From the NCBI GenBank assembly GCA_027456965.1, contig DAIDUA010000032.1, forward strand, positions 1-36,905: 36,905 nt of DNA, written 5' to 3'. Every line of letters begins with the position of its first letter. Position 1 is the stretch's first letter. The notes beneath the pieces are model-generated. The model searched no databases. It was not told the origin of the DNA and worked only from the letters and a program-made list of their open reading frames with translations. The DNA comes from Alphaproteobacteria bacterium. Its GTDB lineage: Bacteria; Pseudomonadota; Alphaproteobacteria; Micropepsales; Micropepsaceae. Positions 1,822-36,576 of this stretch are shown piece after piece. The position numbers and the translations under genes were made by a program.

Positions 1822-4084
1822 CTGTCACACCTTTTTCACGCATATTTTTTTGCTTCAAAGGAAAAGCCAGCGTCACCTGAGCCCCCTTTGTTTCTTCCCC
1901 TGCATCTTCCAGTACGATTTCGCCGCCGTGGTCTTCCATGATCTTCCGCACGATCGCCAGACCGAGCCCCGTGCCTTTGACGCGCGTCGTCACATAGGGT
2001 TCGGTCAGGCGATGGCGATGCTCCGCCGGCAAGCCGATGCCGTTGTCGGAGACCTTGAAGGCGATCTGCAAGTCCGGCGTCTCGATCGCCACCGCGATGC
2101 GGCCCGGCGTGTCGTCGCCTGCGGCGTTGCGCGCCGCGATACCTTCGGTGGCGTTCTTGAGCACATTGGTGAGCGCCTGGCTGACCAGGCGGCCGTCGCA
2201 CTCGAACCAGACGAGTTCCTTCGGAATGTGCGTCTCGAAGGTGATCTGCGGATTGGCGACGCGCTGCAGGAACACCGCCTGCTGCAGAAGTTCCTGGGCG
2301 CATTCCCGCCGCATGACCGGCGTCGGCATGCGCGCGAAGGATGAAAATTCGTCGACCATGCGGCCGATGTCGCCGACCTGGCGGATGATCGTGTCGGTGC
2401 ACTGTTCGAAGATCTCGCGGTCGGCGCCGACCTCGCCGCCGTATTTGCGTTTTAGCCGTTCGGCGGAAAGCTGGATGGGGGTCAGCGGATTCTTGATTTC
2501 GTGGGCGATACGGCGCGCGACATCGGCCCAGGCGGCCGTGCGCTGCGCCGACACGAGGTCGGTGATGTCGTCGAACGTCGCGACATAGCCGCCGTCGTGG
2601 CGGCCCTGTTCGCTGGCGACCTGGACGCTCAAGGAGCGCGTGGTGCCGGCGCGCTTGACCGTAACCTCGCCGCCGGCCCGGGCGACAGGTTCCTGGATGG
2701 CGCGCCGTATCAGGGCCGCCAGTTCGGGTACGGCCTCGGCATAGTGCTGGCCCTCAAGTTCTTCCGGCTCGGCATTCAACAGGCGCGCGGCGGCGCGGTT
2801 GACGATGGTGATCTGCCCGTCGGGATCCAATCCGATTACGCCGGCGCTGACGCCGGCAAGCACGGTCTCGGTGAAGCGGCGGCGTTCGTCGATCTGGCGG
2901 TTGGCAGCAATCAACGCGCTGCGCTGGGCGTCGAGTTGTTGCGTCATGCGGTTGAAGGCCACGCCGAGAGTCCCGATCTCGTCGTCGCTGCGCTCGATGT
3001 CGACCTGCGCCTTGAGGTCGCCCTCCGAAACACGTTCGGCCGCACCGATCAGGCTGGAGACGGGTTTGACGAGGCGATTGGCCGCCCACAGGCCCAGCCA
3101 TACCGCAGCCAGCAGGACAACGAGCGAAACAAGACCATACAGCGTCGCGAAAGCGAGCTGTACGCGCGAGAGGCTGCTTTCGAGCCGGTTGTACTCCTGT
3201 ATCGTGCCTTTGGTGCGATAGTAGTAATTGAACACCGTGGGATCGACGACACGCACGACCTCCAGATAGGCGTCGTTGAGGGCCTGCAGCCTGATCAGCG
3301 CGCGAACCATGCCGGCTTCGGGAATGGCGTCGATAAAAATCGTGCCCTGGGCCGCCTGCTGGATTTCGCTCGGCGCAAACGGCTTGAGAGCCGCGGACCT
3401 CCTCTGTTTCGAGTTGTCGCGCAGCGGCGTCGTGCTGCCCAGAACATCGTTGTGGCTGTCGATGATATACGACGAATACAGGCCATGATCCTGCGTCAGT
3501 TCCTGAAGCTTGGTGAACATCAGGCCGAGGTGGACCTTTTTCTCCTTCAGATCGAAGATGCGCGGATCGTTCTGAAGCCCCGCCGCGATTTCGCCGGCGT
3601 CTATGATGATGCCGCGGGCACGCTCCAGCACATATTGGCGCGCCACGTTTTGTGCGCCGTCGAGCGCCGTCTTCACGCGCTGCGAAAACCACGCCTGGAC
3701 GCCGAGATTGAGCGTCACCGCTGCGAAGATGGCGACCAGGATCGCCGGCACCACGGCGATGGCGCTGAACATCGCCACCAGGCGCACGTGCAGCTTCGCG
3801 CCCGCCCTGCCCGAACGCCGCTCACTCCATAGCCGCACCAGCCGCCAGGCGATGAGCGCGCCGAGCGACAGCCCCAACGTCAAATTGATGAGGATAAGGG
3901 CCGTCACCATGCCTTGCGTGGGCGCGTAAGGGACGAGGCCCATCAGGATGGCGTAGGTGAATATCCCGGACAGGACAGCCAGCAGCGCCACGCCAAGCGC
4001 CAGCAGCGACGGCCGCGATGCCGCGCGCAAAAGATCGAGCACGCCGTGTCCTTTGGACTTTCCGACTACCGTGGCTGTGGCCAT
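1790..4084 (-). CDS. ntrY: NtrY sensor histidine kinase (TM, HAMP, PAS, HisKA, HATPase)
   Basis: HAMP DDEIGTLGVAFNRMTQQL, H-box [23 protein letters not shown]-box TGLGLAIVRKI. ORF extends to 4198 but MATATVVGKSKG at 4084 is the more likely start. Confidence 0.92.
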   Translation of the reverse strand: MATATVVGKSKGHGVLDLLRAASRPSLLALGVALLAVLSGIFTYAILMGLVPYAPTQGMVTALILINLTLGLSLGALIAWRLVRLWSERRSGRAGAKLHVRLVAMFSAIAVVPAILVAIFAAVTLNLGVQAWFSQRVKTALDGAQNVARQYVLERARGIIIDAGEIAAGLQNDPRIFDLKEKKVHLGLMFTKLQELTQDHGLYSSYIIDSHNDVLGSTTPLRDNSKQRRSAALKPFAPSEIQQAAQGTIFIDAIPEAGMVRALIRLQALNDAYLEVVRVVDPTVFNYYYRTKGTIQEYNRLESSLSRVQLAFATLYGLVSLVVLLAAVWLGLWAANRLVKPVSSLIGAAERVSEGDLKAQVDIERSDDEIGTLGVAFNRMTQQLDAQRSALIAANRQIDERRRFTETVLAGVSAGVIGLDPDGQITIVNRAAARLLNAEPEELEGQHYAEAVPELAALIRRAIQEPVARAGGEVTVKRAGTTRSLSVQVASEQGRHDGGYVATFDDITDLVSAQRTAAWADVARRIAHEIKNPLTPIQLSAERLKRKYGGEVGADREIFEQCTDTIIRQVGDIGRMVDEFSSFARMPTPVMRRECAQELLQQAVFLQRVANPQITFETHIPKELVWFECDGRLVSQALTNVLKNATEGIAARNAAGDDTPGRIAVAIETPDLQIAFKVSDNGIGLPAEHRHRLTEPYVTTRVKGTGLGLAIVRKIMEDHGGEIVLEDAGEETKGAQVTLAFPLKQKNMREKGVTDEQARIVNRV

Positions 4085-4213
4085 TCCCAACCGTCGTTGA
4101 CGGGTGAACTCGCTAACCCGCGAGTGTTGCTTCGTAATCTGGCAGTGTAGCGATCTGGCCACCTGTTGCAAGAATGCTGCGATGCAATCCGACAACACGG
4201 TTAAGGTGGGGCG

Positions 4214-5665
4214 TCAGTCCGACTTCAGCCCTCGAATTACTTCCAGGCCCAAATCACGGATTTTCTTGCGCAGCGTGTTGCGGTTGAGGCCGAGCAGATG
4301 GGCGGCGCGGATCTGATTGCCGCGGGTGGCGCCCAGACAGATCGACAATAAGGGGCGTTCGATTTCCTGGAGGATGCGGTCATAGAGGCCCGGCGGTGGT
4401 AAGCGCTCGCCATGTTCGGCGAAATACTTCGTCAAATGGCGCTCTACGGCGCCTCCAAGCGTCACCGGCTCGTCCCCGTCCTCGAAGCTGCTCGTCCTGG
4501 TCGGTTCCGTCAGCTCCGCGGCAATCGCCGTGGCGGGAATCGCGTCGCCGGAGTGCAGAACGGCCAAGCGGCGGATCAGATTTTCCAGTTCGCGCACATT
4601 GCCCGGCCAGCGATGGTGGCGCAGCAGGTCGAGTGCGTCGCCGTCCAAACGCTTGGCCGGCAGACCCTCCTCCTCCGCCTTGCGGAGAAAATGCCGCACC
4701 AGATCGGGGATGTCCTCGACGCGCTCGCGCAAGGGCGGCAGGCGCAGCGGCACGACATTGAGCCGGTAATAGAGGTCCTCGCGGAACATGCCCTGCTGGA
4801 TGAGCTGGCGCAGGTCGCGGTTGGTCGCGGCGATGATGCGTACGTCGGTCTTGATCGGCGTCCGCCCGCCGACCGTCGTGTATTCGCCCTGCTGCAAGAC
4901 GCGCAGCAACCGGGTTTGCGCCTCCAGCGGCATATCGCCGATCTCATCGAGGAACAGCGTGCCGCCCTCGGCCTGTTCGAAGCGGCCGACGCCGCGGTTG
5001 GTGGCGCCGGTGAAGGCGCCGCGTTCGTGACCGAACAATTCGCTTTCGACGAGTTCCTTGGGAATGGCCGCCATGTTCACGGCCACGAAGGTGCCGTGCC
5101 GGCGCTTGCCGTAATCGTGCAGCGCGCGGGCGACGAGTTCCTTGCCCGTGCCGCTTTCGCCCATGATCATCACGGTCAGGTCGGTCTGAGTCAGCCGTGC
5201 GATAACGCGATAGATTTCCTGCATCGCCGGGGAACGCCCGATCAGCGGCAGCCGATCCTCGCCGCCGCTGTCGTCCGACGGCGCGTCGCGCTTGCCCTGC
5301 GGACTGGCGAGCGCGCGCTGGACGACGGCGGTCAGTTCCTTCAGGTCGAACGGTTTCGGGAGATAATCGAAGGCGCCGCGCGCGGCCGCCGTGATCGCCG
5401 TGAGTATCGTGTTCTGCGCGCTCATGACGACGACGGGCAGATCCGGCCGCAACCGTTTGATGCGTGGAATGAGATCGAAGCCGTTTTCGTCCGGCAGGAT
5501 CACGTCTGTGATGACGAGATTCCCGTCGCCGGCGGCTACCCAGCGCCACAACCCGGCCGCCGTGCCTGTCGTGCGCACGTCGTAGCCGGCGCGTCCCAAA
5601 GCCTGATTGAGAACCGTGCGGATCGCGGAGTCGTCGTCGGCGATGAGGATCATGCCATCAGGCAT
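4214..5665 (-). CDS. ntrC: NtrC nitrogen regulation response regulator
   Basis: Starts [19 protein letters not shown]; Walker [37 protein letters not shown]-terminal Fis [23 protein letters not shown] track extends upstream to 5788, into ntrB. Confidence 0.94.
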
Positions 5666-6773
5666 CGGCTTCTCCTTCACTGTCGTTTGCCGCTTTCGGC
5701 AACAAAATGCGGAAAACGGTGCGGTGCGAGACGGAATCACATTCGATGACGCCGCCGTGGTCGCCGATGATCTTGGCCACCAGTGCAAGGCCGAGGCCGG
5801 ATCCGCCGCGTTTCGTGGTGACGAACGGATCGAAGATGTAGGGCATCAGGTCGGCGGGCACGCCCGCGCCGTTGTCGCGGACGGTGACCTCGAGCGGCAG
5901 GCTCAGCCGTTCTCCCGCCACCGCCGCGCCGAAGCGCACGCCGGGACGGTATCCCGTGGTCAGCGTGATCTCGCCGCCGGAGTCCGGCACCGCGTCGGCC
6001 GCGTTGCGCACCAGGTTCATGAACACCTGGATGAGCTGGTCGCGGTCGCCCAGCACGCGCGGCAAAGAAGGGTCGAAGGTCTCCACGAAATTGACGTGCC
6101 TGGCGAAACTTGTCTCCGCGACGCGGCGCACGCGGTCCAGCACTTCATGGATATTGACCGGCGCCCGCGGAAAAGCGCGCGTGTCGCCGAAAGATTCCAT
6201 GCGATCGATCAGGGCGCGGATGCGGTCAGACTCGTCGCAGATGAGCCGCGTCAGATCGCGCTCGTTGGACGGAAGGTGTTCTTCGATCAGCTGCGCTGCG
6301 CCGCGAATCCCGGCGAGCGGATTTTTGATTTCGTGCGCCAGCACCGCCGCCATGCCGTGCATCGAGCGGACGGCGCCGCGGTGGAGCAGTTGCCGGTCGA
6401 TACGCTGCGCCAGACCGCGCTCCTGCAGCATGATGATCACCGTGCCTTCGGGGTCCGGCATCGGCGTGACGATGAGATCGGTGATATGTTCGCCATGCCG
6501 CGGTGTCGACAGGTCGACGTCGCGTTCGCCCACCGACGCGCGCCGCTCCAGCGCCTGGCCGATCAGTTGAAACAGCGGACTTCCGAACGGGATCAGATCC
6601 GCGAGTTTCTGCTTTCGCAGCAGCGGCGCGCCCATGCCAAAGAACTGCTCCGCGGCGGGATTGACGAAAAGGATCTGCTGCTGCGGGCTGATCACGATCA
6701 CGGGCATGGGAAGGGCCGCCGCGATCAGGCTTGTCGCCGGGCTTTCCAGGGGCAGTTTTGCGCTCGCGCTCAC
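5658..6773 (-). CDS. ntrB: NtrB nitrogen regulation sensor kinase
   Basis: PAS-like N-terminus, H-box [22 protein letters not shown]-box [11 protein letters not shown]-box [12 protein letters not shown]; overlaps ntrC. Confidence 0.93.
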
Positions 6774-6782
6774 CGATGATCC

Positions 6783-6824
6783 ATGCCTAATACTTAGGCA
6801 TCATATTACACTGCCGATAATATG
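6783..6824. promoter_or_regulatory. Two adjacent perfect inverted repeats in the ntrB/ispDF divergent promoter region
   Basis: ATGCCTAA-TAC-TTAGGCAT at 6783-6801 and CATATTA-N9-TAATATG at 6802-6824, both read directly. Minus-strand TTGCAC...TAATAT is promoter-like. Confidence 0.6.
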
Positions 6825-6897
6825 TGCAACTGCCCATGGGTCGTTTTTTTTAGGCCCGCGCGTGCTACCAAGAAAATCAATGATTCCGGAGAAAACA

Positions 6898-8045
6898 TGG
6901 CCCGCATAGCCATCCTGATCGTCGCCGCCGGCAAGGGCGAACGCGTGGGCGGCAGCATCCCCAAGCAATATGCCCCCCTGCTCGGCCAGACGATGCTCCG
7001 CCGTTCGATAGAGGCTTTCAACGGCCTGGCGGATGCCGTCGTCCAGGTCATGATCGGCCCAGGCCAGGCCGAACTCTACCGCGGAGCAACACAAGGATGC
7101 GACGCGCGTCCGCCGGAAGTCGGCGGTGCGACGCGCCAGGAATCCGTGCGACGCGGGCTGGAGGCGCTGACGGCCGACGCGCCCGCCTTTGTGCTGATCC
7201 ACGATGCCGCCCGTCCGCTGGTTTCGCGCAGGCTGATCGACGGCGTGATTGCGACGCTGGCGGCGGGTGCGGACGCGGCGGTGCCTCTGCTTCCCGTGGC
7301 CGACACGCTGCGCAAGCAGGAGAACGGCAAGTGGATCACCGTGCCGCGCGCCGGCCGGCTGCGCGCGCATACGCCGCAAGGCTTCCGCTTCGCGGCGATT
7401 TTGAAGGCGCATCGCGATCACGCGGCGCAGGATGTCACCGACGATATGGCGCTGGCGGAATTGGCAGGCTTGCAGATCGTCGCCGTGCCGGGCGAGGAAA
7501 CCAACATGAAAGTGACAAATCCGGAGGATTTTGCGGTGGCCGAAGGTTTGCTGTCCGCGCGACTGGGCGAGACGCGCACCGGATCGGGTTTCGACGTCCA
7601 TCGCTTTGCGCCGGGCGACCATGTCTGGCTGTGCGGCCTGAAAATCCCGCACGACCATGCGCTGGAAGGCCATTCCGACGCCGATGCCGGATTGCACGCC
7701 CTGACCGACGCCATCCTGGGCGCCATCGGCGAAGGCGATATCGGTCTGCATTTTCCGCCTACGGACGAACGCTGGCGTGGCGCGCCGTCTTGGAAGTTCC
7801 TCGACCATGCGGCGGACATGGTGCGCAGGAAAGGCGGTGCCATCGTCCACTGCGACGTGACCATCATCTGCGAGCGGCCGAAGGTGACGCCCCATCGCGA
7901 AGCCATGCGCGCCAAGATCGCCGAGATCCTGCACCTCGCCGTTTCGCGGGTCAGCGTCAAGGCGACAACCACCGAAGGGCTGGGCTTCACCGGACGGCGC
8001 GAGGGGCTTGCCGCGCAGGCCATCGCCACGGTGCGCCTGCCGTGA
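6898..8045 (+). CDS. ispDF: Bifunctional IspD/IspF (MEP cytidylyltransferase / MECDP synthase)
   Basis: IspD LIVAAGKGERVGGSIPKQY then IspF GSGFDVHRFAPGDHVWLCGLKIPHDHALEGHSDADAGLHALTDAILG; ATG preceded by a purine-rich RBS (ggagaaaac). Confidence 0.95.
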
Positions 8046-8494
8046 GCTGGAGCGCGCGCCTCGCGACCTTGTTCGGCCTCGGCCGCATGCCGCATGCGCC
8101 CGGCACGGCGGCGAGTCTGGTTGCGGCGGCTGTCGCCTGGCCGATCGCCGCGGCGGCCGGTTCCTGGGTACTGTTACCACTGGGGGTCGCGGTTGGGTTG
8201 GCGGCAGTTCCGATCGCCGATCGCTACGCGCGCGAATGCGGCCGGGATGATCCGTCCGATTGCGTGATCGACGAACTGGCCGGACAATGGCTGGCCTGCG
8301 CCTTCGCACCGTTGTCATTGTGGGGTTTTATGCTGGCATTCGTGGCTTTCCGCCTATTCGACATGACCAAGCTCTGGCCGGTCTCGGCGGCGGAGAGTCT
8401 GAAGGGTGGCGTCGGAATCGTGGCCGACGATATCGTGGCGGGGTTGCTGGCGGGCGTCGTGGTGATGCTGCTCTGGAGGTTCGGACTGGCGTGA
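8042..8494 (+). CDS. pgpA: Phosphatidylglycerophosphatase A
   Basis: GTG start overlapping ispDF stop; SWSARLATLFGLGRMPHAPGTAASL... and DPSDCVIDELAGQWLA typical of PgpA. Confidence 0.88.
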   Translation: MSWSARLATLFGLGRMPHAPGTAASLVAAAVAWPIAAAAGSWVLLPLGVAVGLAAVPIADRYARECGRDDPSDCVIDELAGQWLACAFAPLSLWGFMLAFVAFRLFDMTKLWPVSAAESLKGGVGIVADDIVAGLLAGVVVMLLWRFGLA

Positions 8495-8979
8495 TGTTCT
8501 CCCCACTTCTTCTTTCGCTGGCGAAGACGGTGCTGGACGAAGCGCGGGCGAAAGACCTGCGCGTCGTCACGGCGGAAAGCTGTACGGGCGGATTGATCGC
8601 GGGCCTTCTCACGGAGATTCCCGGCTCGTCGGATGTACTGGAACGCGGCTTCGTCGTCTACTCTAATCGCGCCAAGCAGGACTTGCTGGGCGTGGCCGGC
8701 GAATTGATCGCCGATCATGGCGCGGTGTCCGAAGAAGTGGCACGGGCGATGGCGCAAGGCGCAGCGGCGCATTCCGACGCGCAACTGGCCGTCTCGGTCA
8801 CCGGAATCGCCGGGCCAGGTGGCGGGACGGCTGCGAAGCCCGTCGGCTTGGTCCACGTCGCCGCTTGCCGCGATGGCAAGGTTCTGCACGAGGAATGCCG
8901 TTTTGGCGATCTCGGGCGGACGGAGATACGGACGAAAAGCGTGGAAGCGGCGCTGAACCTGCTACGCCGCCTTTTCTGA
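8494..8979 (+). CDS. CinA C-terminal domain protein (nicotinamide-nucleotide amidase family)
   Basis: ATGA overlap with pgpA; RVVTAESCTGGLIAGLLTEIPGSSDVLERGFVVYSNRAKQDLLGV and TGIAGPGGGTAAKPVGLVHVA. Confidence 0.9.
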   Translation: MFSPLLLSLAKTVLDEARAKDLRVVTAESCTGGLIAGLLTEIPGSSDVLERGFVVYSNRAKQDLLGVAGELIADHGAVSEEVARAMAQGAAAHSDAQLAVSVTGIAGPGGGTAAKPVGLVHVAACRDGKVLHEECRFGDLGRTEIRTKSVEAALNLLRRLF

Positions 8980-9414
8980 TAGCGCCTTTGCCCGTGCTTC
9001 GAATGCGTCCGTCATTTTCAGCAGAACGTGTTCAAAGGCTTTTCCCGCAACGGCGCCCAGCAGCCGGTTCTTGAATTCGAAGGCGATGGAGAATTCCACC
9101 TTGCAGCCCTCGCCGTCAGGCGTGAAGCGCCAATGCGTCTCCAATTGGCGAAAGGGCCCTTCGGTCTGCGTCACATCAACCGCGCGCGCGGTCGGATCGA
9201 GCATCACGCGGCTGGTGTAGCGCTCGCGAAGCGCGCCGAAGCCGACAAGCATTTCGGCACGCTGCACCTCGCATGATTTCATGAGTTCCCGCGACAGCAC
9301 GCGCAACCCGATACACCACGGCAGGAACTCGGGATACTTCTCCACGTTCGCCACGACCGCGTACATTAGGTCGGCAGCGTACGGAACGTTTCTGCTTTCA
9401 GAGTGCGTGATCAC
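8962..9414 (-). CDS. RatA / COQ10-type START-domain protein
   Basis: Starts [39 protein letters not shown], matching the RatA/COQ10 pattern; upstream end overlaps lipA stop. Confidence 0.85.
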
Positions 9415-10364
9415 GCGCGCGTGCGCGCCGCCTTGAGCTGCGCGAAATCCGAATCGGCATGATAGGAGGAGCGCGTCAGCGGACTGGCGGAGACCATTTG
9501 AAAGCCCTTCGCGCGGGCCGTCGCCTCCAGCGCCTTGAATTCGTCGGGCGACCAGAAGCGGTCGAGCGGCGCATGTTTGCGCGTCGGCTGCAGGTATTGG
9601 CCGATGGTGAGGTAGTCGACGCCGGCGGCGCGCAAATCGTCCATCACCTGCATGATCTCTTCACGGCTTTCGCCCAGCCCCACCATCAGACCGGATTTGG
9701 TGAAGCCGTCCGGGACCAGTTCTTTGGCGCGCTCCAGCAGCCGCAGCGAGACAAAATAGCGCGCACCGGGGCGGACGTTGAGATAAAGTCGCGGCACGGT
9801 TTCGAGATTGTGGTTGAAGACGTCGGGCCGCGCTTCCATCACGATCTCGATCGAGCCGGGCTTGCGCAAGAAATCCGGCGTCAGCACTTCCACTGTCGTA
9901 CCGGGGCTTTGTCGGCGGATAGCCTGAATGGTTTCGGCAAAATGTTTCGCTCCGCCGTCAGGCAGATCGTCGCGATCGACTGAAGTAACCACGACGTGCT
10001 TAAGGCCAAGCTTGGCCACCGCCTCGGCGACTCGATCCGGCTCTCCGCCATCAAGGGCGCCTGGCAGGCCCGTTTTCACATTGCAGAAGGCGCAGGCGCG
10101 CGTGCACGTGTCGCCCATGATCATCATGGTGGCGTGGCGGTGGGTCCAGCATTCGCCGATATTGGGACAGCCCGCCTCTTCGCAGACCGTGTGGAGCCCG
10201 TGCTCGCGCACGATGGTTTCCGTTTGGGAATACTCGCGCCCCATGGGCGCTTTGACGCGGATCCAGTCCGGCTTGCGCAAGACGGGGTTGTCGGGCCGGT
10301 TCGCCTTTTCCGGGTGGCGGAGGGCACGGCGATCCCTCTCCGCCTGGTCGATCACGGTGGTCAT
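9411..10364 (-). CDS. lipA: Lipoyl synthase
   Basis: Radical [37 protein letters not shown] near the C-terminus. Confidence 0.96.
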
Positions 10365-12679: not shown

Positions 12680-13489
12680 CTATTTTGCCGCAAACAGCAT
12701 TTCATGCCGGGCGCAGATCTTCGGCCAGAGCAACGCCGCTTCTGGGAGCTTCAGGCCAAAGACATCATCCAGCGCGGTGACGTATTCGTCTGCGTCGGCA
12801 AGGACGCGGTCCTTGTGGCCGTCCGGCGTCAGATGGCGCAGCATGCGGCCGCGCAGAACAGAGAGCCCCATCGCAGTGTGACGCTGGCATATGGCGTTTT
12901 GCACGAACACAGACTCCTGAGAAATCTGCAGCCAGTCGCACTTCCTGGCGAGCAGAGCCTCGTCCGCCTCGACCAGATTGAAATCGAAGGACGGCGCACC
13001 GGCCCCCGCGTGATTGTGCAGGCGCCACCATCCGCCATCCTGGCGCGAGAGCGCAAAGTCGAAGCCGCGCGAGACGAAGGCGCCGGGCGCAACGCGGATG
13101 GGATCGATCGGTCCGTCGCCGAATCCGACGTCCGCGAGATAAATCCCTTCCTCCAGTTCGACCTTCAGCACCAGATGATTGCCGATCGACGTGTCGCCGG
13201 ACGCTTCGCGCATTACGGCGCCGGCGCTGCGCGTCACCTTGAAACCCAGTTGGCCGAGCGCCCAGCCGAACAAGCCGTTCATCTCGTAGCACCAGCCGCC
13301 ACGCCGGTTCGTGACCATTTTATCGAAGATGGCCGCGAGTCCGGTGGTGACCGGCTGACCGAGTTGCACGTCAAGATTTTCGTAGGGAATGGCCAAGAGA
13401 TGGGCGCGATGCAGGGCGGTCAGCGTCGCGAGGTCCGGGCGCGTCACACCACCGAAGCCAATGCGTTCGAGATAGGCGGCGACGTTCAT
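12680..13489 (-). CDS. Arylamine N-acetyltransferase
   Basis: MNVAAYLERIGF..., HLLAIPYENLDVQLG, RRGGWCYEMNGLFGWAL (Cys), NHLVLKVEL (His), YLADVGFGDGP (Asp): catalytic triad context of NAT. Confidence 0.9.
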   Translation of the reverse strand: MNVAAYLERIGFGGVTRPDLATLTALHRAHLLAIPYENLDVQLGQPVTTGLAAIFDKMVTNRRGGWCYEMNGLFGWALGQLGFKVTRSAGAVMREASGDTSIGNHLVLKVELEEGIYLADVGFGDGPIDPIRVAPGAFVSRGFDFALSRQDGGWWRLHNHAGAGAPSFDFNLVEADEALLARKCDWLQISQESVFVQNAICQRHTAMGLSVLRGRMLRHLTPDGHKDRVLADADEYVTALDDVFGLKLPEAALLWPKICARHEMLFAAK

Positions 13490-13614
13490 TAGGCGCCCCT
13501 GAGCCAAGCTGCCGCGCCTGCTATCACAGGCAGCCAGCCAAATCCTAGGAGTGTATTCCGTTAACTGTTTCGTTTGCCGAATCAAAATATTTTCAAGTTC
13601 CCTATAGGGTGGTC

Positions 13615-13655
13615 TTGCATATTACGAAGTTCATGCTAGATATGAGTTCGTAATA
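13615..13655 (+). promoter_or_regulatory. Candidate PadR operator/promoter
   Basis: Perfect 9-bp inverted repeat TATTACGAA-N18-TTCGTAATA (13620-13655) with CTAG at the centre; TTGCAT and TAGATA hexamers with about 16 bp spacing overlap it, about 30 nt before the padR GTG. Confidence 0.6.
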
Positions 13656-13684
13656 GTTGGAGGGCGGAAGAAAGGCGCGTTTCA

Positions 13685-14080
13685 GTGGCAGACGAAACTC
13701 AATACACGCGCAAATTCCGTAAGGAACTCATGGCCGGGCTCTCATCGCTCGTCCTCCTGGCTGTGCTCGCTCGCGCGGGCCGGGAGATGTACGGATACGA
13801 AATCGCCAAAGCCGTGAAGGCCGAGGGCGAAGGCGGTCTGATCTTCAAACAGGGGGCAATCTACCCCGTCCTGCGCTCGCTCAATGTCCTGGGCCTGCTG
13901 GAGAGCCGGGTAGAGGCTTCCGCCTTCGGTCCGCCGCGGCGCTACTACAGCATCACCGACGAAGGGCGGCGCGCGCTCGCCGAATGGCAGTTTGCCTGGC
14001 GCGACATGCGCGAGTTCGTCGACGACGCGCTCAAGGCCGGCACCGGAGGGATGGCCCATGAATTCCAGCCAAGCGCCTGA
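13685..14080 (+). CDS. PadR family transcriptional regulator
   Basis: LSSLVLLAVLARAGREMYGYEIAKAV, FKQGAIYPVLRSLNVLGLLESR, RRYYSITDEGRRALAEW: PadR winged helix. Confidence 0.9.
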   Translation: MADETQYTRKFRKELMAGLSSLVLLAVLARAGREMYGYEIAKAVKAEGEGGLIFKQGAIYPVLRSLNVLGLLESRVEASAFGPPRRYYSITDEGRRALAEWQFAWRDMREFVDDALKAGTGGMAHEFQPSA

Positions 14081-14960
14081 GACAGTCCGCGCCTATCTCG
14101 ACCAATTGCGCAGAGCTCTCAAGGGCGCCCCGCCAGGCCTGATCGCCGATGCGCTGGCGGACTGCGAAGAGCATCTGAACAACGAGATCGCACAGAACCC
14201 CGGTCAGGACGAAGCCAGCGTGCTGGCTTCCGTGGTGGAGACCTACGGCTCGCCACAAGAAATTGCGGAGGAGTATCGCGACATGGAAGCAACGATTTCC
14301 ACGCCATTTCCCAAGCAGGACGAGCCAGCTCGGCGCCGTCACGGATTTTTCAACGTCATCTCCGATCCGCGCACCTACGGTGCGTTGCTCTATATGCTGC
14401 TGGCGCTGGTCACCGGCATCTTCTATTTCACATGGACGGTCGTCGGCATCTCCATTACGGCCGGATTTGCGATCCTTATTCTCGGCATTCCATTCGCCCT
14501 GCTCTTCGTCGGTTCGATCCGCCTGCTAAGCCATGTGGAGGGACGCATCGTCGAAGGCCTGCTGGGCGTGCGCATGCCGCGCCGCCTGCCCCCGACCACC
14601 GCACCGGACGAGTCCATCTTCACACGGATCAAGGAAGCGCTGGTCGACATGCGGACATGGACCTCGATGTTCTATCTGCTGCTGATGCTGCCGCTCGGCA
14701 TCATCTATTTCGTGGTGGCGGTGGTCGGGCTTTCCGTGTCCATCGGGGTCGCTGGCGGCGCGATCTACGGGCTCATCACCAATCACAGCAACTTCCAGGT
14801 CGGCGACGTCCCCTGGCTCGACCACCTGCTCCACACGGCGCCGGGGCTATTCCTGGTGGCGCTGGTCGGGCTGCTGCTGTTCTTCGTCGTCCTGCACATC
14901 GCAAGGGCAGTCGGCTGGATGCACGGCCGCATTGCGGAAGGGCTTCTCGTCCGGCTTTGA
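14058..14960 (+). CDS. HAAS/DUF1700-like N-terminus fused to two multi-TM sensor-like modules
   Basis: VRAYLDQLRRALKGAPPGLIADALADCEEHLNNEI...YGSPQEIAEEY (HAAS type) followed by two similar hydrophobic modules; overlaps padR by 23 nt. Confidence 0.72.
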   Translation: MNSSQAPETVRAYLDQLRRALKGAPPGLIADALADCEEHLNNEIAQNPGQDEASVLASVVETYGSPQEIAEEYRDMEATISTPFPKQDEPARRRHGFFNVISDPRTYGALLYMLLALVTGIFYFTWTVVGISITAGFAILILGIPFALLFVGSIRLLSHVEGRIVEGLLGVRMPRRLPPTTAPDESIFTRIKEALVDMRTWTSMFYLLLMLPLGIIYFVVAVVGLSVSIGVAGGAIYGLITNHSNFQVGDVPWLDHLLHTAPGLFLVALVGLLLFFVVLHIARAVGWMHGRIAEGLLVRL

Positions 14961-14991
14961 CAACCCCCGAAAAGTCCGGCCGAAGCAGGCG

Positions 14992-15030
14992 CGGTCCATG
15001 GGCCAAAAGGTCCGTGGACCGTGCTTTTCT
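14992..15030 (+). terminator. Rho-independent terminator after the padR/HAAS pair
   Basis: CGGTCCATGGGCC-AAAA-GGTCCGTGGACCG: 13-bp stem with two G-U wobbles and a 4-nt loop, then TGCTTTTCT. Confidence 0.75.
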
Positions 15031-15239
15031 GTGGTCTGGCAGTCGCCGCGGGAAATGTCAGAATCACAAATTAGTACAACCCTTTGTTCCGAGCTGGTGC
15101 AGGCAATTGTTAACACGACGGTAATGGTTGACGTCGCAGTATGGGCTCGGGCTATATGCCACGTCGCCGGCTCGCCAGCGGGCTGATCTAAGGGCTTGGT
15201 TTCGCGTATGACCGCGAAAATCGTAAGGCAGGAGCCAAC

Positions 15240-16847
15240 GTGGACGGGCTAAGAGAACCGACGGCACAGTCACCTCTGTATGAATGGGGCCGCTCCGCGC
15301 GCTCCGCCCTGTCTACCACCGACGGCCGCTGGGCCTTGGTTTCGACGTCCCTGACCGCCGTGATCGCGGGTTCCATTGCCTGGCTGGCCATGGGCACGAT
15401 GCCGCCCGCGAACTCCATCGGTTTTGATACCGCCAACCACCAATTGCTGCCCTATCGCCTGTTCCAGAATCTGATGCAGTCGAGCGGCGGCGCGCTGTAC
15501 GCTGCACTCGGGAATTCCGGCAATGTCCACGTCAGGACGATGCCGTCCGCGACCAGCCAAGTCCCGCTAGACAATACCTTGGCGGCGGAGCAAGCGAGCG
15601 AAAATCAGAAGCCGAGCGTTGAGACCCATACGGTCACGCTGGACGACGGCGATACACTTGCCGGTGCGCTCGAAGATGCGGGCATTTCCGCAAGCGACGC
15701 AAACGCGGCGATCGCCGCGCTGGCAAAAGTCTACGATCCGCGCAGCCTACGCGCCGGGCAAGCGTTCGACCTGACCTACTCGACACAGCCGGATCAATCT
15801 GCCCAACCCTCAAATTTCACGGATACCTCGTCCGGCGACAATGGCAACCTAGCCGGCGCACAACCGGTGAACTCGCAATCGGTCGAGCGGCTGCTGTCGA
15901 TTACCTTCTCGCCGACGATCGAGCACGACATCACTGTCACGCGTGCGGCGGACGGAACCTTCGCGGCGACCGACGCCGTGAAGCAGCTCACGGCGCATGT
16001 GCATCGCGCCGGCGCGACGATCGATTCCAGTCTCTATCTCTCCGCGATGCATGCCGGCATCCCCGCCGACGTCGTTGTCGAGATGATCAAGATGTTTTCC
16101 TACAAGGTAGATTTCCAGCGCGACATCCACCCCGGTGACTCGTTCCAGGTCTTCTACGACTACTACTACACGCCGCAGGGACAGCCCGTGAAAGTGGGCA
16201 ATATCTCCTACGCGATGATGAAGCTGGGCGGCCGTGAGATTTCGCTCTACCGCTACCAGCCGAATCCGAATGAACCGGCGGATTATTTCGATGCCCACGG
16301 CCAGAGCGCCAAGGGCATGCTGATGAAGACGCCGGTGGATGGCGCCCGCATCACCTCGGGTTTCGGCATGCGCTTCCACCCGATCCTGGGCTACACGCGG
16401 ATGCACAAGGGCGTCGATTTCGGCGTGCCGATCGGAACGCCGGTGATGGCCGCCGGCTCAGGCACCATCGCGTTCATGGGATGGGAAAACGGCTACGGGA
16501 AATTCGTCCTGCTGAATAACGGCAACGGCTATTCGACCGCCTATGGGCATCTGTCGCGCTTCGCGCCCGGCCTGCACAAGGGCTCGCATGTTCGTCAGGC
16601 CCAGGTGATCGCCTATAGCGGCATGACGGGTATGGCGACCGGCCCGCACCTCCATTACGAAATCCGCATCAACGGCGTGCAGGTTAATCCGCTGAAGGTG
16701 AAGATCGCGCAAGGGCGCAAACTTCAGGGTCGCGAATTGCAGAAGTTCCTCGCCGCCCGGATGCATATCGACGCCGAACTGGCCGCCACCAAGCTGGAAA
16801 CCAAAGTCGCGGATATCTCCACGGACCTGCGCCAGGCCGCACGGTAA
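15240..16847 (+). CDS. M23 family metallopeptidase (LytM-type), membrane anchored
   Basis: GFGMRFHPILGYTRMHKGVDFGVPIGTPVMA and GPHLHYEIRINGVQVNP (HxxxD and HxH motifs); N-terminal TM; GTG start. Confidence 0.9.
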   Translation: MDGLREPTAQSPLYEWGRSARSALSTTDGRWALVSTSLTAVIAGSIAWLAMGTMPPANSIGFDTANHQLLPYRLFQNLMQSSGGALYAALGNSGNVHVRTMPSATSQVPLDNTLAAEQASENQKPSVETHTVTLDDGDTLAGALEDAGISASDANAAIAALAKVYDPRSLRAGQAFDLTYSTQPDQSAQPSNFTDTSSGDNGNLAGAQPVNSQSVERLLSITFSPTIEHDITVTRAADGTFAATDAVKQLTAHVHRAGATIDSSLYLSAMHAGIPADVVVEMIKMFSYKVDFQRDIHPGDSFQVFYDYYYTPQGQPVKVGNISYAMMKLGGREISLYRYQPNPNEPADYFDAHGQSAKGMLMKTPVDGARITSGFGMRFHPILGYTRMHKGVDFGVPIGTPVMAAGSGTIAFMGWENGYGKFVLLNNGNGYSTAYGHLSRFAPGLHKGSHVRQAQVIAYSGMTGMATGPHLHYEIRINGVQVNPLKVKIAQGRKLQGRELQKFLAARMHIDAELAATKLETKVADISTDLRQAAR

Positions 16848-24128: not shown

Positions 24129-25259
24129 CTACTGCGCGGCTTCGAGAGTCTTGCCGCGCGTCGCCTCTATCTCCGCAGCTTTCTTTTCGCAGAGATCAAC
24201 GATGTGCTCCACGAGATCCTTGTTGTCGAGGCGATAGGCGATCTCGCCGTTCAGATAAATCTGGCCGTGGCCCTTGCCGGCGCCGCCCCCGGTGAAGCCC
24301 AGATCTGTTTCCCGCGCCTCGCCCGGCCCGTTCACCACGCAGCCGATGATCGAGAGCGACATCGGCGTGGTGATGTGCTTGAGGCGATCCTCCAGAAGCT
24401 TCACCGTCTCGATCACGTTGAATCCCTGGCGCGCGCAGGACGGGCAGGAAATGATGTTCACGCCGCGATGGCGCAGGTTCAGCGATTTCAGGATGTCGAA
24501 GCCGACACGGACTTCTTCCTCCGGCTCGGCGGAGAGCGAAACGCGAATGGTGTCGCCGATGCCGCTCCACAACAGCATGCCCATGCCAATCGAGGATTTT
24601 ACCGTGCCGGAGATCATGCCGCCTGCTTCGGTGATGCCCAGATGGAGTGGGCAATCAATTACTTCGGCCAGCGCCTGATAGGCGGCCACGGCAAGGAACG
24701 GATCTGAGGCCTTCACCGAAATCTTGTATTCGCGAAAGTCGTTGTCATCGAGAATCTTGGCGTGGCTGAGAGCGCTCTCCACCATCGCTTCGGGGCACGG
24801 TTCGCCGTAGCGCTCAAGCAGATCCTTCTCGAGCGAGCCTGCGTTGACGCCGATTCGCATCGAGCAGTCGTGATCCTTCGCCGCCTTGACGACATCCCTC
24901 ACGCGCTGCGCGCTGCCAATGTTGCCTGGATTGATGCGCAGACAGGCGGCACCCGCCTCCGCCGCTTCGATAGCGCGCTTGTAATGGAAGTGGATGTCGG
25001 CGACGACGGGAATTGGCGACGCCTTGCAGATCGCCTTCATCGCGGCCGTGGCGTCTTCGTCGGGGCACGAGACGCGCACGATGTCGGCACCAGCCTCCGC
25101 CACGCGACGAATCTGATCGATCGTGCCGCGAACGTCGGACGTAACCGTGTTGGTCATGGTCTGCACGCTGATCGGGGCATCGCCACCGACGGCCACGGGA
25201 CCCACGTGAATCTGCCGGGATTTACGCCGGTAAATATCGCGATACGCTCGTATGCTCAT
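24129..25259 (-). CDS. ispG: 4-hydroxy-3-methylbut-2-enyl diphosphate synthase
   Basis: [74 protein letters not shown]. Confidence 0.97.
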
Positions 25260-33580: not shown

Positions 33581-34429
33581 ATGACCAACGGACCGCCGCG
33601 TCTTTTCGATTCTCATGCACAGGCTTGCTACCGCGCCAGGGCCGCACGGATGGCGGGCGACCGCTTCCTGCTGCGTGAGGCGACGGAGGGTGTTGCAGCC
33701 CGCCTGGCCCCCGTGAACCGGAGGTTTGGCGCCGCACTTGCCGTAGATGGGCGCGCGGCAGAGCTGCTGCGAGATGCCGCGACGTCCTGGCGCAGCGGGC
33801 TATTCGACGGTAGCGAGCGACTGGACGCCGGCGACGGCGGTTACGATCTGGCGGTCAGCGTTCTGTCGCTGCATGGCGCGAACGATCTGCCGGGCGCACT
33901 GGTGCAGATTCGCAGGGCCCTGAATCCGGACGGTCTGTTCGTGGCCGCGCTGTTCGGCGGCGCGACGCTTTCCGAGCTGCGGGACTCGTTCGCCGCGGGC
34001 GAGATCGAGACACTGGGCGGTGTCAGTCCGCGCGTCGCGCCGTTCGCCGATGTGCGCGAGCTCGGCGCGCTGCTGCAGCGGGCGGGCTTTGCGCTGCCAG
34101 TGGCGGACGTGGAGCGCACGACAGTTCTGTATCGCGACTTCAACACGCTGGTGAACGATCTGCGCCTGCTGGGCGAGACGAACGCGCTCGCCCAGCGCCG
34201 CCGCACGCTGACGCGCGCCACGCTGCGCGCCGCGCTGGCACACTATGCTGCCAAATATGCGGAAGCCGACGGAAGACTGCGCGCGACCTTCGATATCGTC
34301 TATTTGACTGGCTGGGCGCCGCATGAAAGCCAGCAGAAGCCACTGAAACCCGGCAGCGCGAACGCCCGGCTCGCTGAAGCCTTGGGAACAATCGAATACA
34401 AGGCCGGCGACAAGGCGAAGCCGCGCTAA
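33581..34429 (+). CDS. NDUFAF5/BioC-like SAM-dependent methyltransferase-fold protein
   Basis: DLAVSVLSLHGANDLPGALVQIRRALNPDGLFVAALFGGATLSELRDSF, VNDLRLLGETNAL, IVYLTGWAPHESQQKPLKPGSA: pattern of NDUFAF5-type alphaproteobacterial proteins. Confidence 0.85.
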   Translation: MTNGPPRLFDSHAQACYRARAARMAGDRFLLREATEGVAARLAPVNRRFGAALAVDGRAAELLRDAATSWRSGLFDGSERLDAGDGGYDLAVSVLSLHGANDLPGALVQIRRALNPDGLFVAALFGGATLSELRDSFAAGEIETLGGVSPRVAPFADVRELGALLQRAGFALPVADVERTTVLYRDFNTLVNDLRLLGETNALAQRRRTLTRATLRAALAHYAAKYAEADGRLRATFDIVYLTGWAPHESQQKPLKPGSANARLAEALGTIEYKAGDKAKPR

Positions 34430-34884
34430 TCCCTCAGGAAGGCGGCGACCTTGGGATCGGACATGAGCGCTTTGCGTTCGTCCTCGCTCGGCAAAGCCGG
34501 TTTGTCGCGCTCGACATTGACCATGCAGAGAAAGCCGAGTGGCGTATCGGCGTTGGCGCGGAACTGATGCCAGGTCCACGGCTCAATGGTGACGAGATCG
34601 TTGGTGTCGATTTTATGGACCTTGTCGCCAATCAAACATTCGCCGCGACCGCGCAGGATCAGAACCGCATGCATGTGCTCGTGGCGTTCCAGAGTCGAAT
34701 AACCGCCAGCCGCGACTTCGAAATAGCGCAGCTCGCATTTGATGGCCGGATCGCGGAACAGCGTCTGGCGGGTAATCGCCTTGAACGGCGCGCTGCCTTC
34801 TTCCTTGTAGGCGAGCAAATCCGTGTCCTCCCAGCGGAAGGCATCGAAGCGGCGTATCGGGCTCTTCTTGTCCAAAGTCGTCAC
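34426..34884 (-). CDS. Cupin-domain protein, possible MTXu-5-P methylsulfurylase-like
   Basis: STLERHEHMHAVLILRGRGECLIGDKVHKIDTNDLVTIEPWTWHQFRA (cupin motifs with His cluster); ATGA overlap with the RuBisCO-like gene. Confidence 0.75.
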   Translation of the reverse strand: MTTLDKKSPIRRFDAFRWEDTDLLAYKEEGSAPFKAITRQTLFRDPAIKCELRYFEVAAGGYSTLERHEHMHAVLILRGRGECLIGDKVHKIDTNDLVTIEPWTWHQFRANADTPLGFLCMVNVERDKPALPSEDERKALMSDPKVAAFLRD

Positions 34885-35984
34885 CGGGTCCGACAGGTCC
34901 GCACGGCGTCCACATAGCGCGCGGTTTCTGCGGTAATGCGCTCGCGCGTCGACAGCAAGCTACCGCCGATCAGCAGCATGACATCGGCGCCGAAGAAATC
35001 CAGCAGCTCGGGGATCCGCTCCAGCACCATGCCGCCGGCCGGAACCGGCACGCAGGGTTTGACGCCGGTCCGGTCCTGCAAAGCGAAGTCCGCCAGGCGC
35101 TTGCACTCCTGCGGCGTATAGCCGAAGCGGCCGCCGTAATTGGCAAACACGGTGGCGTCGGACCCGAGCAGGCGGAGGAACTTGCCCAGCAGGAACGATG
35201 GCATGATGCGCGATGCCCCTGCCATCGTCGGGTGCGTCATGAAGGCGAAGTCGGGGTTTTCCTTCACCATCGTCTGAAACGTATCCACACCGGCAATCAG
35301 CGGCGCAATCAGGACGCTGTCGAGCCCGCAGGAGCGCGCCAGCGCGATCTGCCGGCGCATGGAATCCAGATTGCCGCAAAGGCTCGGGAGGTAGCGCGTC
35401 GGAATGCCGGTGCGCGCGGCGGCGTTCGCAACCGCCTCGGCACAGGCGGGTACGCGTTCGGCGAACGGGCTGTAGCTTTGGTCCGCAAGACCGTGGTCGT
35501 CTTTCAGATAGTCGATGCCGCCGGCCGCGATCTGGCCGGCAAGCTTGGCAAGCGCGGCAGGTGTGGAGCCCTGCGGCTTGAGCGCCGAACAGGTCAGCGC
35601 GCGCGACGGCGCATTCACGCGGGCGCGCAGTCCGGCGAGACCGTGGCGCGGCCCGCCGAAAGCCTCGGTGAACTCTGCCGGAAACTTTGCATCCACCAGG
35701 ACGGTGTCGTCCTGCATGGAGGTGTTGCCGAAGATCATGTTGAGCGTCTGGCCCGCCGCCATGCCGGTGGTGATCGACGCCAGACCGATGCGCACCTCGA
35801 ACGTACCGTCGCCGATGTCCTTGATATCGTCGACCCGGCCCAGGGTTTCGCGGAGCACGAAGGGATCGTCGATGGGCTCGACCGGCATCTCCACGCTCTG
35901 CTCGACGGCAATGCCGGTGGCGCGGGCGGCGATGGACTTGGCGTCGCCGCGGACGCGATAAAGGACTTCAATTCTGCTGCTCAT
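34881..35984 (-). CDS. RuBisCO-like protein (form IV)
   Basis: CSALKPQGSTPAALAKLAGQIAAGGIDYLKDDHGLADQSYSPFAERV (RuBisCO active-site region), loop-6 region VFANYGGRFGYTPQEC without the RuBisCO-type loop-6 Lys, PVPAGGMVLERIPELLDFFGADVMLLIGGSLL. Alternative start at 35996. Confidence 0.9.
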   Translation of the reverse strand: MSSRIEVLYRVRGDAKSIAARATGIAVEQSVEMPVEPIDDPFVLRETLGRVDDIKDIGDGTFEVRIGLASITTGMAAGQTLNMIFGNTSMQDDTVLVDAKFPAEFTEAFGGPRHGLAGLRARVNAPSRALTCSALKPQGSTPAALAKLAGQIAAGGIDYLKDDHGLADQSYSPFAERVPACAEAVANAAARTGIPTRYLPSLCGNLDSMRRQIALARSCGLDSVLIAPLIAGVDTFQTMVKENPDFAFMTHPTMAGASRIMPSFLLGKFLRLLGSDATVFANYGGRFGYTPQECKRLADFALQDRTGVKPCVPVPAGGMVLERIPELLDFFGADVMLLIGGSLLSTRERITAETARYVDAVRTCRTR

Positions 35985-36028
35985 AAGGCCGACCATATGA
36001 GCGGCCCGGCGTCATTGCGCAAGCGATT

Positions 36029-36172
36029 TCAGAACGTGATGGCCGCGAACATGGCCTTTACCTGGGTGCCGATCGTCGACAAGGCGCTGACGATCACGAT
36101 CGAGATCAGGCTGGCGACCAGCGCGTATTCGATGGCGGTGGCGCCGTGCCGGCTGCGCAGAAAAGCCGTCAC
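36029..36172 (-). CDS. Flp/Fap-type pilin (47 aa)
   Basis: GTG start overlapping the mutT stop (GTGA): MTAFLRSRHGATAIEYALVASLISIVIVSALSTIGTQVKAMFAAITF; classic Flp pattern GATAIEYALVASLI. Confidence 0.88.
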   Translation of the reverse strand: MTAFLRSRHGATAIEYALVASLISIVIVSALSTIGTQVKAMFAAITF

Positions 36173-36576
36173 AAGAGATCGCGCAGCATCGGGATGAGCG
36201 GGATGTCCGCAGGCGTCAGCGGATAGTTCGGCATGTCCTTCGGCCGGACCCATTTGATCTGCGGATGCTCCAGCGGACGGGGCGTGCCCTCCCACCGGCG
36301 GCAGACGTAGAGCGGCATGAGCAAATGAAAGTCCGCGTAGCTGTGCGACGCAAAGGTGAACGGCGCCAGACACGGTTCCTTCACCTCGATCCCCAGCTCC
36401 TCGCGAAGCTCCCGGATCAACGCCTCTTCCGGACGCTCGCCCGGCTCCAACTTCCCACCCGGAAATTCCCATAGTCCCGCCAGGTTCTTTCCCTCCGGCC
36501 GCTGTGCCAGAAGCACGCGCCCGTCGGGATCGATCAAGGCGCAGGCGACGACATGAACAACCTTCACCTGCGTCAT
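36169..36576 (-). CDS. mutT: Nudix hydrolase, 8-oxo-dGTP diphosphatase (MutT-like)
   Basis: Nudix box GKLEPGERPEEALIRELREELGI; N-terminus VVHVVACALIDPDGRVLLAQRPEGKNLAGLWEFPGG. Confidence 0.93.
   Translation of the reverse strand: MTQVKVVHVVACALIDPDGRVLLAQRPEGKNLAGLWEFPGGKLEPGERPEEALIRELREELGIEVKEPCLAPFTFASHSYADFHLLMPLYVCRRWEGTPRPLEHPQIKWVRPKDMPNYPLTPADIPLIPMLRDLL

Follow-up and report, generated by a model that had tools for sequence, protein, structure and literature searches.

A RuBisCO-like protein and a cupin encoded by overlapping genes, a predicted MTA-isoprenoid shunt pair in an uncultured relative of Rhizomicrobium

Which reaction is served by a gene for a form IV RuBisCO-like protein (RLP) that overlaps a small cupin gene? 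This question is raised by a 36,905-nucleotide stretch of DNA, referred to below as the window (contig DAIDUA010000032.1 of assembly GCA_027456965.1; Alphaproteobacteria, Micropepsaceae). A preliminary description of the window had proposed that the pair may run a shunt from a methylthio-sugar to 1-deoxyxylulose-5-P (DXP). The proposal is supported by the grouping of the RLP, by the metal ligands of the cupin, and by the presence of mtnP, mtnA, and dxs in the assembly. It is highly probable that the RLP and the cupin are the enzyme pair of the 5'-methylthioadenosine (MTA)-isoprenoid shunt, their activities being predicted from sequence.

Overlap and conserved pairing of the two genes

The genes and their junction are located as follows.

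34881 to 35996, minus strand: RLP, predicted 5-methylthioribulose-1-P 1,3-isomerase of the Rhodopseudomonas palustris RLP1/Rru_A1998 type (371 aa; open reading frame [ORF], Pfam, PDB match, model, and tree)
34426 to 34884, minus strand: cupin, predicted 1-methylthioxylulose-5-P methylsulfurylase of the Rru_A2000 type (152 aa, GTG start; ORF, Pfam, PDB match, and fold search)
34881 to 34884, minus strand: overlap GTGA of 4 nt, with the GTG start of the cupin gene over the TGA stop of the RLP gene (ORFs and junction sequence)

The shared bases and the GTGA junction bear out the 4-nt overlap of the preliminary description, an arrangement consistent with translational coupling of the RLP and cupin genes. 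The cupin gene adjoined the RLP gene in all 14 of the complete same-genus loci first examined. It was located downstream of the RLP gene, on the same strand, at 78 of the 80 named loci inspected (nearly all alphaproteobacterial), which were drawn from at least 554 candidate stretches encoding relatives of the window RLP. The two exceptions were locus L085, which ends 278 bases past the RLP gene, and locus L095, with no cupin gene within about 6 kb. The distance from the RLP gene to the start of the cupin gene was about 1.4 kb at L083 and about 0.3 kb at L091. A divergent RLP from genome G082, 40% identical to the window RLP, also had a cupin alongside, again with a 4-nt overlap. Close relatives share the arrangement mutT, Flp pilin, RLP, cupin, methyltransferase, comF, and other genus members (e.g., G031) carry the pair at another site.

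Additional features were observed at these loci. The RLP without a nearby cupin (L095, positions 6001 to 7116) belongs to the clade of the window RLP and has downstream an antisense ORF resembling, by eye, a cysteine synthase gene. The RLP of the G082 pair (L183, positions 3130 to 4676) has an HQGGRF loop, and upstream of the pair lies an ORF named by eye as an XRE-cupin-like regulator. At L020 (G032:C149:79694-80755), the RLP frame contains one in-frame TAG, reflecting a pseudogene or an assembly error. In the window, a lone Flp/Fap pilin gene (positions 36029 to 36184; 54.5 bits) is located about 30 nt upstream of the RLP gene on the same strand, and in close relatives this pilin gene is kept between mutT and the RLP gene.

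Assignment of the RLP and of the cupin

The window RLP was matched by the Pfam model RuBisCO_large (75.4 bits for a cut-off of 30.1). Its best PDB match was 3qfw (393 bits, residues 4 to 366), the next-best solved structure scoring 111 bits. The two proteins are about 51% identical end to end, and the predicted model of the RLP (pLDDT of 93.5) aligned with 3qfw with a TM score of 0.92 and an rmsd of 1.0. In the titles of the structure library, 3qfw is an RLP of R. palustris and 2qyg is rlp2 of the same species. Since RLP1 and RLP2 are the two RLPs of R. palustris (PMC5893883), 3qfw should be RLP1, by deduction. RLP1 (RPA2169, with cupin RPA2170) is proven to convert 5-methylthioribulose-1-P into 1-methylthioxylulose-5-P and 1-methylthioribulose-5-P in a 3:1 ratio with a kcat of 1.3 per s (PMC5893883). 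The identity of the window RLP is based on comparison with this R. palustris protein, RLP1 by deduction. The values of dN (0.039) and dS (0.59) obtained with a 93% identical relative indicate purifying selection and, thus, a maintained gene.

A quick tree was built with 92 proteins, namely, the window RLP, 3qfw, 86 others, and four outgroups (two MtnW-type proteins, the Photo RLP, and the OiaX-like RLP of the genome itself). A branch with an SH-aLRT value of 99 separated the 88 proteins including the window RLP and 3qfw from the four outgroups; this branch is used for a coarse split only, given the length of the outgroup branches and the incompleteness of some outgroup sequences. Placement in a form IV tree, a check that the preliminary description had called for, thus grouped the window RLP with its R. 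palustris homologue and with relatives linked to cupins, away from the MtnW, Photo, and OiaX-like proteins. Rhizomicrobium electricum provided the nearest named relative among the matches listed (RLP 64% identical), which lies near the window RLP in the tree.

Three motifs of the active site were compared among these proteins.

35571 to 35579, minus strand: KPQ motif of the RLP (K140 to Q142, in ALKPQG), KPQ in 87 of 88 relatives
35493 to 35504, minus strand: KDDH motif of the RLP (K165 to H168, in YLKDDHG), KDDH in 88 of 88 relatives
35124 to 35141, minus strand: NYGGRF of the RLP (residues 286 to 291, in ANYGGRFGY), replacing RuBisCO loop 6 (motif alignment)

The retention of lysine at the KPQ and YLKDD positions (K140 and K165) and the occurrence of NYGGRF at the site of the loop-6 lysine of RuBisCO, both claimed in the preliminary description, were read directly in the ORF. 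In RuBisCO, the glutamate following KDD is a metal ligand. The residue at this position is histidine in all 88 relatives and glutamate (KDDE) in the MtnW, Photo, and OiaX-like outgroups. The GGRF loop occurs in all common variants among the 88 relatives and in none of the four outgroups, and PAGG is common to 87 of the 88. KPQ, KDDH, and GGRF are all shared with 3qfw, taken as the proven member RLP1. A CO2-fixing RuBisCO was considered and rejected, the scores of the form III and large-subunit models being 121.3 and 108.1 bits for cut-offs of 497.45 and 438, respectively, and the protein having KDDH and NYGGRF rather than KDDE and the loop-6 lysine.

The window RLP might instead be MtnW, the 2,3-diketo-5-methylthiopentyl-1-P enolase of classical methionine salvage in Bacillus and Geobacillus. 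MtnW has the same RuBisCO fold and, as predicted for the window RLP, follows MtnA in a methionine salvage route; the window RLP is indeed matched by the MtnW-type NCBIfam models. However, these matches fall far below the cut-offs (144 versus 409 bits and 101.7 versus 513.6 bits), identity in structure alignments is only about 21 to 27%, and the motifs differ (KDDH/GGRF in the window RLP versus KDDE/YGSV in MtnW). In addition, the MtnW route is oxygen dependent, and acireductone dioxygenase was over the cut-off in none of the 60 same-genus genomes; classical salvage is thus not the alternative in this genus. An MtnW function is, on this evidence, very improbable.

Even less probable is a function as an apionate-pathway decarboxylase or a similar sugar-acid enzyme. 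OiaX, the 3-oxo-isoapionate-4-P decarboxylase, is also form IV RuBisCO-like, and its model weakly matches the window RLP, but at 57.7 bits for a cut-off of 700. The genome encodes a separate form IV RLP on another contig (C34 of assembly G000; L033, positions 7303 to 9892) that scores 460 bits against OiaX, next to a kinase scoring 462 bits against OiaK (cut-off of 700 for both). This second RLP and the window RLP are about 31% identical over 198 aa. The apionate reading therefore fits the C34 gene, not the window RLP. A transporter-like ORF and further ORFs of catabolic appearance surround the OiaX-like gene, and this region is likely a sugar-acid catabolic cluster.

The cupin was matched by Pfam Cupin_2 (48.2 bits for a cut-off of 27.2). 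Its best PDB match was 3jzv, Rru_A2000 of Rhodospirillum rubrum (183 bits; 85 of 142 residues identical, 60%), followed in the fold search by 3kgz of R. palustris and 3ibm of Halorhodospira halophila. Rru_A2000 is the methylthioxylulose-5-P sulfurylase (PMC4958253), and its reported in vivo coenzyme is glutathione (PMC4334135). The following residues of the cupin are conserved.

34669 to 34683, minus strand: HEHMH (H68, H70, and H72), candidate metal ligands, invariant in 26 aligned cupins and common to 3jzv, 3kgz, and 3ibm
34567 to 34569, minus strand: H106, candidate distal metal ligand, invariant or nearly so in the aligned cupins
34525 to 34527, minus strand: C120, in GFLCMVN, invariant or nearly so in the aligned cupins

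Alignment with the R. rubrum methylsulfurylase, also proposed as a check in the preliminary description, revealed that the HxHxH motif and the distal histidine of Rru_A2000 are kept. The cupin thus has close homology to, and the conserved candidate ligands of, an Rru_A2000-type methylsulfurylase, its activity being predicted. These ligands also bear on the possibility that the main substrate of the pair is a different but related sugar phosphate (e.g., 5-deoxyribulose-1-P derived from 5'-deoxyadenosine) or that the pair has come to act on some other compound. Different RLP families do catalyze different reactions, and the dihydroxyacetone phosphate (DHAP) shunt enzymes MtnA and Ald2 accept both methylthio- and deoxy-sugars (PMC10986504). 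Yet a cupin that removes a methylthio group would have no role on a deoxy-sugar, and it is nearly always paired with the RLP; its retention of the Rru_A2000 ligands likewise argues against such a substrate. We regard this possibility as improbable, although less so than the MtnW and apionate readings.

The window pair therefore compares most directly with two known systems. The R. palustris pair RLP1 (RPA2169; 3qfw by deduction) and cupin (RPA2170; 3kgz) shows about 51% (RLP) and 53% (cupin) identity over the aligned length, with a common gene pair and common motifs. Unlike in R. palustris, the window pair is flanked by Flp pilin, mutT, and methyltransferase genes, and R. palustris additionally has RLP2 and the Ald2 route. 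With the R. rubrum Rru_A1998/Rru_A2000 system, the comparison covered the cupin and the pathway genes mtnP, mtnA, and dxs, which are common to both. The R. rubrum loci are separated by one number, whereas the window genes overlap.

Substrate supply and the predicted route

The preliminary description had found no mtnP or mtnA in the window and had proposed a search of the genome for MTA phosphorylase, methylthioribose-1-P isomerase, and dxs. All three were found elsewhere in the assembly (G000; 67% complete, 224 contigs). mtnP (285 bits) and mtnA (415 bits), both over the cut-off, share one 3.3-kb contig, and a full-length dxs (818 bits) is carried by another. The order on the 3.3-kb contig is mtnP, adenine phosphoribosyltransferase, a glutathione-S-transferase-like gene, and mtnA, the middle two being named from their sequence only. 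Since this is a short contig of an incomplete draft, its binning is slightly uncertain, but the closest relative in the genus (G027, 95% complete) has mtnP, the transferase-like gene, and mtnA in matching order, which lessens this concern. Of the 60 same-genus genomes, 55 had a match to mtnA and 59 had a match to mtnP, with all 42 high-quality genomes having both. The RLP gene was near mtnA or mtnP at none of the 80 inspected loci, indicating no conserved linkage with the genes that supply the substrate.

The glutathione-S-transferase-like gene between mtnP and mtnA (L034, positions 1401 to 2012, and homologous loci) was present in 19 of the 20 genomes that carry the RLP and in 16 of the 27 that lack it, counts uncorrected for relatedness. 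It is perhaps linked to a glutathione-methylthiol adduct.

Two genes of the MEP pathway are present in the window itself.

6822 to 8042, plus strand: ispDF
24132 to 25259, minus strand: ispG

Their distances from the pair are as the preliminary description gave them, but their nearness to the pair carries no weight because they lie about 10 to 28 kb away among ordinary core genes; their presence in the window is coincidental. The genome as a whole contains MtnP, MtnA, and the MEP pathway genes (dxs, ispDF, and ispG), as the MTA-isoprenoid shunt needs.

In the predicted route, use of S-adenosylmethionine, for example in polyamine synthesis, would leave MTA, which MtnP would convert by phosphorolysis to methylthioribose-1-P and MtnA would then convert to 5-methylthioribulose-1-P. 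The RLP would shift protons along this sugar to form mainly 1-methylthioxylulose-5-P. The cupin, a putative metal enzyme using a thiol, probably glutathione, would take off the methylthio group. The resulting DXP would enter the MEP pathway, and methanethiol may serve in this strain for methionine resynthesis. O-acetylhomoserine sulfhydrylase gave weak matches below the cut-off in the 67% complete assembly and is full-length in G027. Because the genome has the substrate-supply genes, the pair is a sound further case of a known pathway: very likely another instance of the described MTA-isoprenoid shunt and not a new kind of system.

The aldolase/dehydrogenase fusion in the genus

In the majority of RLP-free genus members, mtnA is followed by a gene whose 685-aa product belongs to the bifunctional class II aldolase/short-chain dehydrogenase family (1113 bits to PRK08324.1-6); this fusion is mostly missing from RLP-bearing members.

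L129, positions 13469 to 15526 (RLP-free genome G028): aldolase/dehydrogenase fusion, 685 aa, mtnA-linked

The 60 same-genus genomes comprised 17 with the RLP only, 37 with the fusion only, 4 with both, and 2 with neither, for totals of 21 with the RLP-cupin pair and 41 with the fusion. The two genomes with neither were G036 (58% complete) and G075 (no mtnA match). The corresponding numbers for the 42 high-quality genomes were 12, 26, 4, and 0. Class-wide, mtnA or mtnP was beside the fusion gene at 18 of the best-matching 30 loci. On the mtnA contig of the window genome, about 230 bases follow mtnA, so the evidence for absence of the fusion comes from near relatives and from finding no close match in the rest of the assembly.

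Relatedness accounts for much of the anticorrelation (Fisher p of about 2e-9 for 60 genomes), which was therefore not taken as formal proof: the MtnA tree needs only five RLP changes and three aldolase changes and the independent pairs were nonsignificant (none in the same direction, about two in opposite directions; median p of 0.5). These counts suggest that the alternation rests on few independent evolutionary events. We tentatively propose that the genus has two interchangeable exits for methylthioribulose-1-P, the RLP-cupin pair or the fusion, and that lineages swap these modules, a reading that is possible rather than probable. The fusion would act as a one-protein DHAP shunt, cleaving the sugar to DHAP and methylthioacetaldehyde before turnover of the aldehyde. 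A limited literature search found no DHAP-shunt role for this fusion, and this side result may be new.

With this assignment, an uncultured alphaproteobacterium related to the genus Rhizomicrobium joins the organisms predicted to use the MTA-isoprenoid shunt. With at least 554 candidate stretches and a cupin gene nearly always adjacent in the 80 inspected, the route is apparently much more common than its study in a few organisms would suggest. No NCBIfam model was above its cut-off for the RLP or the cupin, so such genes are likely misnamed as RuBisCO or as plain cupins. If the alternation with the fusion is true, it would assign a role to a common unassigned enzyme and would provide a natural experiment on why one waste sugar is directed into isoprenoids in some bacteria and into glycolysis in others.
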